Shown here: one piece after another, positions 32,475-37,118 of the stretch | How the letters are laid out: every line of letters starts with the position of its first letter | Numbering within the stretch: position 1 is the stretch's first letter | Source: Planctomycetaceae bacterium | GTDB lineage: Bacteria > Planctomycetota > Planctomycetia > Pirellulales > UBA1268 | Direction: 5' to 3' | Assembly: GCA_947459185.1 (NCBI GenBank) | Contig: CANHCU010000026.1 | Coordinates: 1 to 37,118, forward strand | DNA length: 37,118 nt | Notes under the pieces: model-generated | What the model saw: the letters and a program-made list of their open reading frames with translations, nothing else | What the model was told of the DNA's origin: nothing | Database searches by the model: none | Translations under genes and position numbers: made by a program

Positions 32475-32503
32475 TTGCCAATATCGCCAGCAAATGCTAT
32501 GTT
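32475..32503 (+). promoter_or_regulatory. putative sigma-70 promoter of the metal ABC operon
   Basis: TTGCCA (32475-32480) and TATGTT (32498-32503) are separated by 17 bp, the best-formed promoter seen in the window. Transcription would begin near 32510, only about nine bases before the ATG at 32519. The -10 box overlaps the first of two operator-like palindromes. Confidence 0.5.
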
Positions 32504-32518: not shown

Positions 32519-33460
32519 ATGTTTTTTGACAGATCAAAATCGTCGTTTTCGGCATCCCTGCTCAGCGTGGCGGTCGCCGCACTCGTCGCGATCACGATGC
32601 CACCGGCGCGGGCAGAGCAGCCGGCCGCGACCGTCGTGGCGACGACGACGATCGTGGCGGATCTCGTGCGACAGGTCGGCGGCGACAGGGTGTCGGTTGA
32701 CTGCCTGATGGCGGCCGGCATCGACCCGCATTCCTACCGGGCTACGCCCCGCGATGCCGATCGGCTTTCCAGGGCGAAGCTTGTCGTCGCCTCGGGCCTG
32801 CACCTCGAGGGGAAGCTGTCCGAACTGCTCTCCCGACTCGCACGGCGGGTGCCGGTGACGGCCGTGGCCGACACGCTGTCCCGCGACCAACTCCTGCCAG
32901 TGGCCGACGACCTCTACGATCCCCACGTCTGGTTCGACGCGCGGCTCTGGAGCCGCTGCGTGCCTGCCGTCGTGGAGGCCCTCGCGAAGCTCGACCCCAG
33001 CGGTCGCGACCACTATCAGTCCCGCGGGGCCGACTTCGTGGCTCGCCTGGAAGCTCTCGACGAAAAGCTGCGGGAACGTCTCGCGACGATTCCCAAACCG
33101 CGTCGGGTGCTCGTTACCGCCCATGATGCGTTCCGCTATTTCGGCAGGGCGTATGACGTCGAAGTGGTGGGCGTGCAGGGCACGAGCACGGAGAGCGAGG
33201 CCGGACTCGCCGACATCAACCGGCTGGTCGATCTGATCGTCTCGCGAGGCATCCCCGCGGTGTTCGTGGAGACGAGCGTGTCGGACCGCAACGTCACGGC
33301 ACTTCGCGAAGGGGCGCAGGCCCGCGGGCATGCGGTCGCGGTCGGCGGCCAGTTGTATTCCGATGCCCTCGGTGGCCCGGGCAGCGGTGCCGAGACCCTG
33401 GAAGAAGTTCTCGTGGCGAACGTTGAAACGATCCACGGCGGACTGACGGGAAAGCGGTAG
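32519..33460 (+). CDS. metal ABC transporter substrate-binding protein (TroA/ZnuA/YtgA type)
   Basis: This periplasmic receptor is for Mn, Zn or Fe. The 313-residue product has a signal peptide (to about residue 34, PPARAEQ) and the cluster A-I binding-protein landmarks: GIDPHSY (H71), DPHVWFD (H136), GTSTESEAG and VFVETSVSDRNV, supplying the His, His, Glu/Asp-type ligands. There is no histidine-rich loop of the kind common in ZnuA, which favours Mn or Fe, weakly. ATG at 32519 is chosen (GGTGA at 32506-32510 is the possible ribosome site, though it may lie upstream of the transcription start); GTG at 32507 is possible. First gene of the four-gene operon; the ATPase gene follows after 4 bp. 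Confidence 0.92.
   Translation: MFFDRSKSSFSASLLSVAVAALVAITMPPARAEQPAATVVATTTIVADLVRQVGGDRVSVDCLMAAGIDPHSYRATPRDADRLSRAKLVVASGLHLEGKLSELLSRLARRVPVTAVADTLSRDQLLPVADDLYDPHVWFDARLWSRCVPAVVEALAKLDPSGRDHYQSRGADFVARLEALDEKLRERLATIPKPRRVLVTAHDAFRYFGRAYDVEVVGVQGTSTESEAGLADINRLVDLIVSRGIPAVFVETSVSDRNVTALREGAQARGHAVAVGGQLYSDALGGPGSGAETLEEVLVANVETIHGGLTGKR
32524..32539. promoter_or_regulatory. operator-like palindrome 2
   Basis: TTTTGACAGATCAAAA: six-base arms TTTTGA/TCAAAA around CAGA, inside the first codons of the binding-protein gene. Being A/T-rich in otherwise GC-rich DNA and related to palindrome 1, it is a plausible second repressor site. The likely regulator is a DtxR/MntR-type protein, perhaps the domain encoded at the end of the same operon. 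Confidence 0.45.
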
Positions 33461-33464
33461 CGAC

Positions 33465-34244
33465 ATGCAGCCGCCACCCCGTGAGCCAATCCTGGAATTC
33501 CACGACGTGACCGTCGCCTACGGCCGGCGACCGGTGCTGTGGAACATCGACCTCGCGATCGACGAGCCCTGTCTGTTCGGCATCATCGGGCCCAACGGTG
33601 CCGGCAAGAGCACGCTGCTGAAGGCGGCGCTGGGCCTCGTGCCGCTGGCTGGCGGCACGGTCCGTTTCTTCGGTCAGCCGTTCGCGGAGGTCCGTGGCCG
33701 CGTCGGCTATGTGCCGCAGCGGGAAACCGTTGACTGGGATTTTCCCGTCAGCGTCAGTGATGTCGTGCTGATGGGCACCTATGCCCGGCTCGGCTGGTTT
33801 CGCCGCCCGGGGCCGCAGGAGCGCGAGATCGCACGGGAGAGCCTCGCGCGGGTCGGCCTGGCCGATGTCGCGGGGCGACAGATCGGAAAGCTCTCGGGTG
33901 GCCAGCAGCAGCGGGTGTTTCTCGCCCGCGCGCTGGCCCAGCAGGCGGATGTCTACGTGCTCGACGAACCGATGGCCGGCGTCGACGCCAGATCGCAGGA
34001 CCTGATCTTTGGAGTGCTTTCGGAACTCCGCGAAGCTGGCCGGTTGGTCGTGGTCGTGCACCATGATCTGCCGACCGCCGCCCAATGGTTCGACCGCGTG
34101 GCGCTCATCGACATGCGACTCGTGGCCGCCGGCCCGACGGCCGCCGTGCTCACGCCCCAGAACCTGGAGCGGACCTACGCAGGCCGGCTCGACCTGCTCG
34201 ACGAACTGGGCCGGGCGGTCGAGGAACGGGGGCGGACGTCGTGA
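33465..34244 (+). CDS. metal ABC transporter ATP-binding protein
   Basis: The 259-residue ATPase of the Mn/Zn/Fe importer has Walker A GPNGAGKST (about 43-51), Q-loop region VGYVPQRETVDWDFPVSV, signature LSGGQQQR (about 143-150) and Walker B VYVLDEPMAGVD. The H-loop reads VVVHHD. The QRxxVDWDFPVSVxDVVxMG block is typical of the manganese/zinc/iron class. It starts at ATG 33465 and its TGA overlaps the GTG of the permease gene by 4 bp (GTGA). Confidence 0.94.
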   Translation: MQPPPREPILEFHDVTVAYGRRPVLWNIDLAIDEPCLFGIIGPNGAGKSTLLKAALGLVPLAGGTVRFFGQPFAEVRGRVGYVPQRETVDWDFPVSVSDVVLMGTYARLGWFRRPGPQEREIARESLARVGLADVAGRQIGKLSGGQQQRVFLARALAQQADVYVLDEPMAGVDARSQDLIFGVLSELREAGRLVVVVHHDLPTAAQWFDRVALIDMRLVAAGPTAAVLTPQNLERTYAGRLDLLDELGRAVEERGRTS

Positions 34245-35122
34245 CAGCCCCGGCAGGCATCGAGCCACTGTTTGCGATCTCCCACAACACGCTGGTGGTG
34301 GCCTGCGGCGTGGCTGCCGTGGGCTGTGGTGCGGGCGTCATCGGTTGTTTCGGCGTGCTGCGCAAGCGGGCCCTGGTGGGGGATGCCGCGGCGCATGCCA
34401 CGCTCGTCGGCGTGGCGCTGGCCTTTCTGGCCACGGGCCGCCGCGATCTGCCGGTGCTGCTGGTCGGCGGATTCCTCTCGGGCCTCGCGGCGCTCGGTGT
34501 GCTCGTGCTCCTGCGGGTGTGCACCCGCACGCGGGATGACGCCGCCACGGCAATCGTGCTGAGCGTGTCGTTCGGCCTTGGCATCACGCTCGTCTCCGGC
34601 ATCACGGCCCGCGGCATTCCCGGGGGTGCCGGCTTGGAGCAGTTTCTGCTCGGCCACACTGCGGCGCTCACGACTGCCGACGCGATACTGCTGGCCGCCG
34701 TGTCCGCGGCCGCTGTGCTGCTGCTGGTGCTCTCGCTCAAAGAGGCCACGCTCATCGCCTTCGATTCCTCGTTTGCCGCCGCCACGGGCTGGCCCGTGGC
34801 GATCATGGACTACTTTTTGGTGGCGCTGGTGGCGGTGATGGTGGTCGTGGGCCTGCCGGCCGCCGGCGCGGTGCTCGTCACGGCACTGGTCGTGATTCCG
34901 CCCGTGGCCGCCCGGCAGTGGACCGACCGCGTGCCGACGATGCTCTTGCTTTCGGGCGTATTCGGCCTGGCGTCGGCGCTGTTTGGCGTGGCGGTGAGCG
35001 CGGTCGTTCCCCGGCTCGCGACCGGTCCGCTGGTGGTGCTGGCCGCGGCGTTCATCTTTGCGGTTTCATTCGTGGGGGCCCCGGAACGCGGCTGGTGGGC
35101 CCGCCACCGCCGGGAGCGGTGA
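34241..35122 (+). CDS. metal ABC transporter permease (ABC-3 family)
   Basis: The 293-residue integral membrane protein has about eight to nine hydrophobic helices. The early block GVLRKRALVGDAAAHATLVGVALAF matches the family's R-x-x-L-x-G-D-A-x-x-H-A, and AAGAVLVTALVVIPPVAARQ is the conserved later helix pair. It corresponds to YtgD/ZnuB-type permeases. GTG start at 34241, overlapping the ATPase stop. A 255-bp gap follows before the second permease. Confidence 0.92.
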   Translation: MTAPAGIEPLFAISHNTLVVACGVAAVGCGAGVIGCFGVLRKRALVGDAAAHATLVGVALAFLATGRRDLPVLLVGGFLSGLAALGVLVLLRVCTRTRDDAATAIVLSVSFGLGITLVSGITARGIPGGAGLEQFLLGHTAALTTADAILLAAVSAAAVLLLVLSLKEATLIAFDSSFAAATGWPVAIMDYFLVALVAVMVVVGLPAAGAVLVTALVVIPPVAARQWTDRVPTMLLLSGVFGLASALFGVAVSAVVPRLATGPLVVLAAAFIFAVSFVGAPERGWWARHRRER

Positions 35123-35377
35123 AAGATGATCAGCAGGGCCACACTTCATCGACCACAGTCGCCCGCATTGGTTCGCCGGCTGCGGCATGCTCGTCGCCGG
35201 CGGATTCTGCTACAGGATGCTCTCGGACGACGGGTCATCGCTCGTGAGTCGCAGAATTCACCGGCTCCTGCGCGTGCCTCCGACCGGCTCCTCAGCATCT
35301 GGAGATTTCATCTGCTGCGATTCCCCGGCGACAATCAATCGATGCCGGCGCCTGCGGGCTGATGTCAAACCAAAACA
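35123..35377. other. 255-bp gap between the two permease genes
   Basis: I see no convincing gene here; the short open frames lack ribosome sites and family resemblance. Just before the next ATG, ACCAAAAC at 35369-35376 is the inverse of the GTTTTGGT string found twice at the operon promoter (32446-32453 and 32501-32508), so a further regulatory site is possible. A gap this long inside an otherwise overlapping operon may hold an internal promoter or a decayed gene. Confidence 0.4.
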
Positions 35378-36667
35378 ATGACGACCCTTTCCTTTTTCAC
35401 CGATGGCGGCGGCATGCATGCCTGGGCGATCGCCACGGCGGCGATGGTCGCGGCCGGCTGTGCGCTGGTGGGCACGCTGCTCGTCGTCCGTCGGATGAGC
35501 CTCGTGGGTGACGCCATCAGTCATGCCGTTCTGCCTGGCATCGTGGTGGCGGTGCTCGCGGGCGGCAGGCTGGGCGGGCCGCTCGTGCTCGTGGGTGCCG
35601 TCGCGGCCGCGCTCCTCACGGTCTGGCTGACGCAGTTGCTGCGGTCCGAAGGCGGCCTCTCAGAGGATGCCGGGGCAGGGGTGGCCTTCACCACGCTGTT
35701 TGCGGTGGGCGTGGTGATCGTGACGGCTGCTGCGTCCCGCATCGATCTTGATCCGGCCTGCGTGCTCCACGGCCTCTTGGAACTGGTGCCGTTTGACACG
35801 GTGCCGATCCTGGGGGTCGAGGTGCCGCGGGCCTTCCTGACCGCCACGGTCGTTTTCGTCACGCTGGCGTTGACGGCGATCGCCACCTGGAAGCTGCAGG
35901 TGTTCACCGCCTTCGATCCCGGAGCGGCCCGGGCGGCCGGCGTGCCGGTGGCGGCGGTCACGACGGGGCTGCTCGTGGCCACGGCGCTGGCCACGGTGGC
36001 GGGCTTCGAGGCCGTGGGGGCGATCCTCGTCGTGGCCATGCTCGTCGTGCCGGCTGCGACGGCCGAACTGCTGACGCGGCGGCTCCATCGCATCGCCGTG
36101 CTGGCGATCCTTCTGGGCGTTGTGGCCGCGGCCATCGGCTACCTCGCCGCATGGCGGTGGAATACGACCGCCGCGGGCATGATCGCCGTCGTGCTTGGCA
36201 TGCAATACCTCGCGTGCGTGCTCCTCTCGCCCGACGACGGACTCGTGGCCCGGCTCTGCAATCGTGGCTGGTTTGCCTGGCGGGTGGCCTGCGAAGACAG
36301 GCTCGCGGCGTGGTGGCGGGCGGAGGAAGCGGTGGCACGCGGAGATACCTTCCCGTCCGCCGAGGGGCCGACGCTCGGTGACCGCGTCGCGGACGTCTGG
36401 CTGGCGATCACGGGCCGTGTGTCGCGGGGCCCCCGCGGCTGGACGCTCTCCGGTCGCGGCCGCGAACAGGCGGACATGGTGGTGCGATCGCATCGGCTCT
36501 GGGAGTCGTGGCTGGGGCGGCATGCCGAACTCCCGCTCGATCATCTCCACCCGCCGGCCGAGTGGATCGAACATCACCTCGGGGCCGAGGTCCGACGGCG
36601 AATCGAGGCGGAGGTCGGCACGCAGGCCAGCGATCCGCACGGCCGAACGATCCCGCCCGAGCCGTAA
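35378..36667 (+). CDS. metal ABC transporter permease fused to a DtxR/MntR-type repressor domain (YtgCR-like)
   Basis: Residues 1-285 are an ABC-3 permease (VVRRMSLVGDAISHAVLPGI near 36-56; AVGAILVVAMLVVPAATAELL near 215). Residues about 300-429 resemble a DtxR family regulator. A shortened winged-helix section contains EGPTLGDRVAD, comparable to the DtxR recognition helix SGPTVSQTVAR, and the wing RGWTLSGRGREQA. The dimerisation/metal domain follows from about 362. Its H372, E376, H391, E395, E398 and H399 match the spacing of DtxR H79, E83, H98, C102, E105 and H106 without gaps. Glutamate at the C102 position is as in MntR and favours manganese. Chlamydia YtgCR has this architecture and its repressor part is released by proteolysis. 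ATG at 35378; last gene of the operon. Confidence 0.88.
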   Translation: MTTLSFFTDGGGMHAWAIATAAMVAAGCALVGTLLVVRRMSLVGDAISHAVLPGIVVAVLAGGRLGGPLVLVGAVAAALLTVWLTQLLRSEGGLSEDAGAGVAFTTLFAVGVVIVTAAASRIDLDPACVLHGLLELVPFDTVPILGVEVPRAFLTATVVFVTLALTAIATWKLQVFTAFDPGAARAAGVPVAAVTTGLLVATALATVAGFEAVGAILVVAMLVVPAATAELLTRRLHRIAVLAILLGVVAAAIGYLAAWRWNTTAAGMIAVVLGMQYLACVLLSPDDGLVARLCNRGWFAWRVACEDRLAAWWRAEEAVARGDTFPSAEGPTLGDRVADVWLAITGRVSRGPRGWTLSGRGREQADMVVRSHRLWESWLGRHAELPLDHLHPPAEWIEHHLGAEVRRRIEAEVGTQASDPHGRTIPPEP

Positions 36668-36671
36668 ACAC

Positions 36672-36744
36672 GGCAAGGCTCGGCATCGTGCCGACCTTGC
36701 CTTGGCGGGCCCCGCCCGCTGGTACTTACCCGGCCCTCCGGGCC
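36672..36744. terminator. hairpin cluster between convergent genes
   Basis: The main stem is GGCAAGG-TCGGCA (36672-36685, one bulged C) pairing with TGCCGA-CCTTGCC (36689-36701) over a TCG loop: 13 bp. Two smaller stems follow: GCGGG/CCCGC (36705-36719) and GGCCC/GGGCC (36732-36744, touching the RND stop codon). There is no T-run, so this would be a bidirectional attenuating or Rho-assisted terminator rather than a classic intrinsic one. Confidence 0.6.
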
Positions 36745-37118
36745 TAACGCTGGCCGAGAACACCCGTGCCCCGTCGCCGGAGTTGGTCGAGGGCGAGGTA
36801 GACCACCGGCGTCGTGAAGAGCGTCAGGCACTGGCTCACGATCAGTCCGCCCACGATCGCGATCCCGAGCGGCCATCGGACCTCCGCGCCCGGGCCTGTG
36901 CCGAGCGCCAGCGGCAGTCCACCGAACAGGGCGGCGAGCGTCGTCATCGTGATCGGACGGAACCGCAGGATGCAGGCCTCCACGATGGCGTCGGCGGCCT
37001 TCAGGCCTCGCGAGCGTTCGGCATCGAGTGCGAAGTCGATCATCATGATCGCGTTTTTCTTCACGATCCCGATCAGCAGGATGATGCCGATCAGCGACAT
37101 CACGTTGAGCTCTTTGCC
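36744..37118 (-). CDS. RND efflux transporter permease, C-terminal fragment (cut by window edge)
   Basis: The frame runs off the window at 37118, so only about 124 C-terminal residues are seen. [37 protein letters not shown] is the highly conserved helix 10-11 region of AcrB/MdtB/MdtC-type (HAE-1) pumps, followed by [62 protein letters not shown]. These pumps export drugs or lipophilic compounds across both membranes with a periplasmic adaptor and TolC. The sequence is intact to the stop at 36744-36746. Confidence 0.95.

Follow-up and report, generated by a model that had tools for sequence, protein, structure and literature searches.

The last gene of a metal ABC transporter operon in a Planctomycetaceae bacterium encodes a genuine fusion of an ABC-3 permease with a DtxR-type domain. 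The stretch of DNA analysed, referred to here as the window, comprises 37,118 nucleotides of contig CANHCU010000026.1, and the features delineated on it are listed in Table 1. Sequence comparison and structure prediction provide good support for the conclusion that the fused domain of the window clade has lost DNA reading. The explanation that we favour, and consider fairly probable, is that a re-used repressor domain serves as a metal sensor on the transporter and would throttle import, and that a separate, stand-alone DtxR would repress the operon.

Table 1. Features of the fused gene and of its operon in the window.
Feature	Coordinates	Strand	Remarks
Fused gene	35378..36667	+	Second (MntD/TroD-like) ABC-3 permease with C-terminal DtxR-type domain, 429 aa
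Permease part, residues 1-285, PsaC-like fold	35378..36232	+	PF00950; best Foldseek matches 7kyp PsaBC
Single long helix, residues 286-320, juxtamembrane, running into DtxR helix 1	36233..36337	+	AlphaFold2 model, conservation
Degenerate helix-turn-helix, residues 321-345, without helix 2, helix 3 drifting	36338..36412	+	
Wing, residues 346-358	36413..36451	+	Strands in AlphaFold2 model
Metal-binding/dimerisation part, residues 359-426	36452..36655	+	Six ligands, W375, motif DPHGxxIP
Periplasmic metal-binding protein (ZnuA/TroA family)	32519..33460	+	PF01297; proposed start ATG 32519
ABC ATPase	33465..34244	+	PF00005
First (MntC/TroC-like) permease, without C-terminal domain	34241..35122	+	
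Sigma-70-like promoter TTGCCA-17-TATGTT	32475..32503	+	1 found, 0.0 expected
Candidate operator box 1, TTTTGGTGAATCAAAA	32502..32517	.	Palindrome search, conservation
Candidate operator box 2, TTTTGACAGATCAAAA	32524..32539	.	22 bp from box 1

The fused reading frame runs from an ATG at 35378 to a stop codon at 36667, its coordinates and frame being correct. Pfam searches placed the ABC-3 domain (PF00950) at residues 15-282 (4.3e-41) and the Fe_dep_repr_C domain (PF02742) at residues 360-426 (1.8e-16; 60.3 bits, the cut-off being 27 bits), so that a single frame holds both a permease and a DtxR metal domain, as in the YtgCR-type architecture. The closest relatives of the tail among PDB sequences were the manganese repressor DR2539 (8.2e-11), 5zr4, SloR and IdeR. 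These matches bear out the initial annotation in describing the last permease of the operon as carrying a C-terminal DtxR-type tail. PF00950 was matched over its full length, and the operon, in the order binding protein, ATPase, permease 1 and permease 2 plus DtxR domain, supplies the ZnuA/TroA-type binding protein and the ATPase expected of an ABC-3 Mn/Fe/Zn transporter. The permease fold (7kyp) and the operon content are shared with the Mn importers PsaBC, TroCD, MntCD and SitCD, which are without a C-terminal sensor. The 255-bp gap between the two permease genes (window 35123-35377) is shared with no relatives other than the nearest ones (L032-L035) and gave neither an Rfam match nor a clear remnant. 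Directly after the fused gene, on the opposite strand (36744-37103), an edge fragment reads like the C-terminus of an RND efflux pump.

An AlphaFold2 model of the fused protein (pLDDT 90.6, pTM 0.84) was compared with known structures by Foldseek; PsaBC was the match for the permease and DR2539 that for the tail. In the model a continuous helix (residues 289-320) is followed by a loop (321-332), a helix (333-344), the wing strands (348-357) and then the metal helices, and few residues separate the fused domain from the last membrane helix. The long helix at residues 286-320 carries the invariant residues E306 and D307.

Alignment with DtxR placed H372, E376, H391, E395, E398 and H399 at the positions of the ligands H79, E83, H98, C102, E105 and H106, exactly the mapping and spacing that had been claimed on first reading. 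D307 occupies the position of DtxR Met10, which we take to be that of Asp8 in MntR, and A310 that of MntR Glu11. Neither the six ligands nor D307 varies among the close relatives (36/36). The Glu at the Cys102 position had been taken to point to MntR-like manganese specificity. The Mn-type site stands, but His98 and Glu102 without Glu11 are the set of DR2539 (H,E,H,E,E,H, including H98), so that "Mn-type, possibly Mn/Fe" is a safer description than MntR-like specificity. DR2539 is responsive to both Mn and Fe and requires His98 (PMC3327659), and the residues aligned here support a DR2539-like site of this type. With DR2539, ScaR, SloR, IdeR and DtxR the window protein shares the metal-binding/dimerisation half; it differs from these repressors in being fused to a permease, in having neither a recognisable DNA-binding domain nor an SH3/FeoA domain, and in W375.

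Judged by sequence and predicted structure, the half that would read DNA has degenerated, and constraint on it is relaxed. The window protein contains the PF02742 metal/dimer domain that places it with the DtxR/MntR family, but gave no match to the N-terminal DNA-binding domain (PF01325) by which that family is also recognised. This profile was likewise without a match in 22/22 close fused relatives, all of which contain PF00950 and PF02742. Helix 2 of the winged helix is missing from the AlphaFold2 model, in which the loop at 321-332 takes its place. The remark that helix 2 "looks reduced" was thus right but understated, and the wing described as kept is indeed predicted as strands 348-357. 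Of the profiles suggested for the tail, Fe_dep_repr_C was found and Fe_dep_repressor (PF01325) was not; likewise, the expected structural likeness to DtxR holds for the metal part and the wing and fails at helix 2.

The same division is apparent from the rates of change. Pairwise identity within the window clade (36 proteins) is 0.77 for helix 1 and 0.78 for the metal half, versus 0.30 for helices 2-3, and between close pairs dN is 0.26-0.50 for residues 319-345, compared with 0.05 for the metal half and 0.06-0.09 for the permease. A paired comparison was made in 13 genomes of the same family, taking one fused and one stand-alone protein from each (best match per locus). Identity of the helix-turn-helix was 0.87 (no gaps) for the stand-alone proteins versus 0.28 for the fused ones, and identity of the metal half 0.89 versus 0.79. 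The net charge of helix 3 did not separate fused from stand-alone proteins. The string GPT-x-x-x-x-VA, initially read as recognition-helix-like, was rejected as such: GPTLGDRVA in the window protein is RPTVGDRLA, RPNLGERLA or GWTLRQRVA in its nearest relatives, an unconserved chance string. In the model of L086, a fusion from a distant planctomycete, the winged helix is complete and is accompanied by the metal domain; since many other distant fusions also keep a complete winged helix, loss of the reading head is a feature of the window clade and not of all fusions.

A likely reader of the operon's promoter region is encoded elsewhere in the genome. Twin palindromes of the form TTTTG-N6-CAAAA lie over the -10 sequence and around the start codon, the proposed ATG being situated between the two boxes, a placement that recurs in most relatives. 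In the 4.09 Mb of the genome this motif occurs at only two places, each time as a twin pair with the same spacing, and the reversed control motif occurs 0 times. The exact twin box is present in 13/30 related genomes, all of the same family. An exact box was found upstream of binding-protein genes (33/63) and of stand-alone dtxR genes (11/62), counts that are not independent because some loci repeat, and coding controls reached at most 8/10. The genome encodes an intact stand-alone DtxR (G000:C3:47680) with PF01325 (45.6 bits) and a FeoA domain. At the promoter of its own gene the best score was 8/10, short of an exact box, so that the link between this protein and the boxes rests on other genomes. 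As the box and the stand-alone reading head are constant and the fused reading head is not, and as the boxes are conserved in relatives and, in other members of the phylum, also precede stand-alone dtxR genes, we infer from conservation that the boxes are bound by the stand-alone DtxR; repression of the operon by this protein via the twin boxes is likely.

The other twin pair in the genome (L123:4083-4120; C68:8582-8619) is located directly upstream of a gene whose product belongs to DUF1559 (PF07596) and has a prepilin-type N-terminus. Boxes, in some cases three, also precede DUF1559 genes in several genomes of the same family (L221, L222, L223 and L224), which suggests a metal-regulated DUF1559 pseudopilin.

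In architecture, YtgCR of Chlamydia trachomatis (CT069) comes closest among known proteins; the window fusion shares with it an ABC-3 permease plus C-terminal DtxR-type domain, a metal ABC operon and the ligands, YtgCR being taken for this comparison as described in published reviews. YtgR, a reported DNA-binding repressor, resides on the C (first) permease, from which it is released by cleavage, and in the presence of metal it binds to the ytg promoter (PMC5599777, PMC7755916). The window fusion, in contrast, is on the second permease, has a decayed reading head and coexists with a separate intact DtxR. The initial annotation had predicted a membrane-tethered or proteolytically released sensor that counts transport and represses transcription; on this YtgCR-like explanation the tail would repress its own operon in a metal-dependent manner. 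The domain order is that of YtgC-YtgR, the wing and part of helix 3 are still predicted, and some distant Planctomycetota fusions keep the full winged helix. We nevertheless regard this explanation as quite unlikely: the reading head is degenerate and fast-evolving where the operator is constant, PF01325 is absent, only few residues lie between the last membrane helix and the domain, and the genome has a DtxR of its own. The predicted YtgR-like repression of transcription is accordingly unsupported, the supposed recognition helix drifting under an unchanging operator. Since neither sequence nor model (PF01325 in 0/22 relatives, helix 2 absent, relaxed constraint) gives the fused domain a winged helix fit for DNA binding, the window protein is not to be classed among the repressors.

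Far from being peculiar to a single genome, the fusion is common in Planctomycetota, often on both permeases. PF02742 was present in 130/246 sampled Planctomycetota genomes, and in the loci retrieved, a single frame encoding permease and PF02742 was verified for at least 40 genomes besides the window's own; survey loci were chosen by PF02742, and the counts cover PF02742-bearing loci only. A literature search found no paper that, judged from titles and abstracts, apparently describes the planctomycete fusion. Both permeases are fused in many operons (for example L078, L079, L090, L092, L104 and L111), the first alone in L070-L074 and L082, and the second alone in the window clade. On the permease tree the fused state requires three changes, which is compatible with a single gain early on followed by loss on two occasions, and hence with a fusion that is old in origin and was repeatedly lost. 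When outgroups were included, the window clade's first permease, which is unfused, grouped as sister to a fused permease (98/84), and the sister lineage (L094) has the C-terminal domain on its first permease. In three genomes of the same family (L218, L219 and L220) the first permeases end in eroded DtxR-like tails of 16-22 bits. The window's first permease has lost its C-terminal domain, and these tails, going by their sequences, are intermediate stages of such loss. Complete loss from one permease of the same operon and eroded remnants in relatives would also fit a leftover domain without function on the second. To this we give very little credence, as dN of the metal half is about 0.05, equal to or below that of the permease, and the ligands together with D307 do not vary.

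Several other arrangements were seen in the survey. In operons with two fused permeases (L091, L092, L104, L105, L111 and L114) the domain on the first permease often carries Asp in place of His98 and is without DPHGxxIP, and the second keeps both His98 and the motif; the two sensors of such operons seem, from these residues, to have diverged. A separate planctomycete PF02742 group without an ABC-3 match (L075, L077, L081, L083, L087, L097, L117 and L118) has Cys at the Cys102 position and the motif CPHGxxIPxGxCC, and is perhaps an iron-type branch. Deinococcus and Paracoccus plasmid permeases of Mn type (L144:3944-5035, L147:3944-5035 and L145:3926-5053) have C-terminal tails of ~90 residues that are winged-helix-like, with weak winged-helix scores, and lack the DtxR metal half. 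The tailed permease of L147 is directly followed by a small, separate gene that is DtxR-like.

For the favoured on-transporter sensor, the operon would encode an Mn (or Mn/Fe) importer, with the stand-alone DtxR acting on the twin boxes over the promoter. The domain on permease 2 would be an old repressor domain that lost DNA reading and kept its metal site, tethered by a rigid helix to the last transmembrane helix and placed beside the ATPases. There it would read cytosolic metal and, when metal is ample, slow or stop import (trans-inhibition). From this anatomy we infer metal binding by the fused domain and an effect of that binding on transport. A cytosolic regulatory domain performs trans-inhibition in MetNI and ModABC (PMC10710835). 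The likeness of the MetNI C2 and ModABC regulatory domains to the fused domain lies in the proposed action, a cytosolic substrate-sensing domain inhibiting its own importer, which is established for those transporters and would apply here by analogy; those domains are ATPase-borne, of other folds and dimeric. It counts against throttling that the heterodimeric transporter would carry only one DtxR domain, which would leave the sensor to work either as a monomer or as a pair between transporters.

Two other roles were considered for a domain of this anatomy. It might accept the imported metal as a chaperone or buffer, or stabilise the permease, without any regulation. The invariant ligands and rigid attachment are consistent with such a role, and the Deinococcus/Paracoccus tails without a metal half point to a structural role of the winged part. 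However, the DtxR-type ligand geometry that is kept belongs to a sensor in characterised proteins, and a chaperone would need a transfer partner, of which none was seen; we hold this role to be unlikely. Alternatively, the fused domain might pair with the stand-alone DtxR through the kept dimer surface and hold it at the membrane, relieving or tuning repression. Conservation of the metal/dimer half in both partners of the same genomes agrees with such pairing, and lost DNA reading would suit a dominant-negative partner. The metal helix, however, bears a fusion-specific mark, as Trp at DtxR position 82 (W375), adjoining the ligands, is present in 87/87 fused versus 5/37 stand-alone proteins, and P99-P100 are specific to the fusion in the window clade. 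These residues, on the same helices, suggest a diverged surface, and no precedent for a membrane decoy was found, which makes pairing very unlikely.

Returning to the on-transporter sensor, we propose, as a tentative joint reading that falls a little short of probable, that a repressor domain captured by an importer became an allosteric metal valve after DNA reading was lost, a second intact copy running the genes. It would represent a trans-inhibition domain of DtxR fold borne on the permease instead of the ATPase, and YtgCR would be one branch of an older and wider family. One architecture would then have two uses, a repressor in Chlamydia and, in this planctomycete clade, seemingly the reading of metal by the transporter and not of DNA. 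The metal half alone is thus insufficient for naming such fusions "repressors". If the proposal is true, it extends the known features of ABC importers by a metal-sensing valve, explains why the fusion is common in free-living bacteria despite their having a DtxR already, and offers in the full winged helix, the decayed helix, the remnant and the lost domain a natural series for the conversion of a transcription factor into a part of a transporter.
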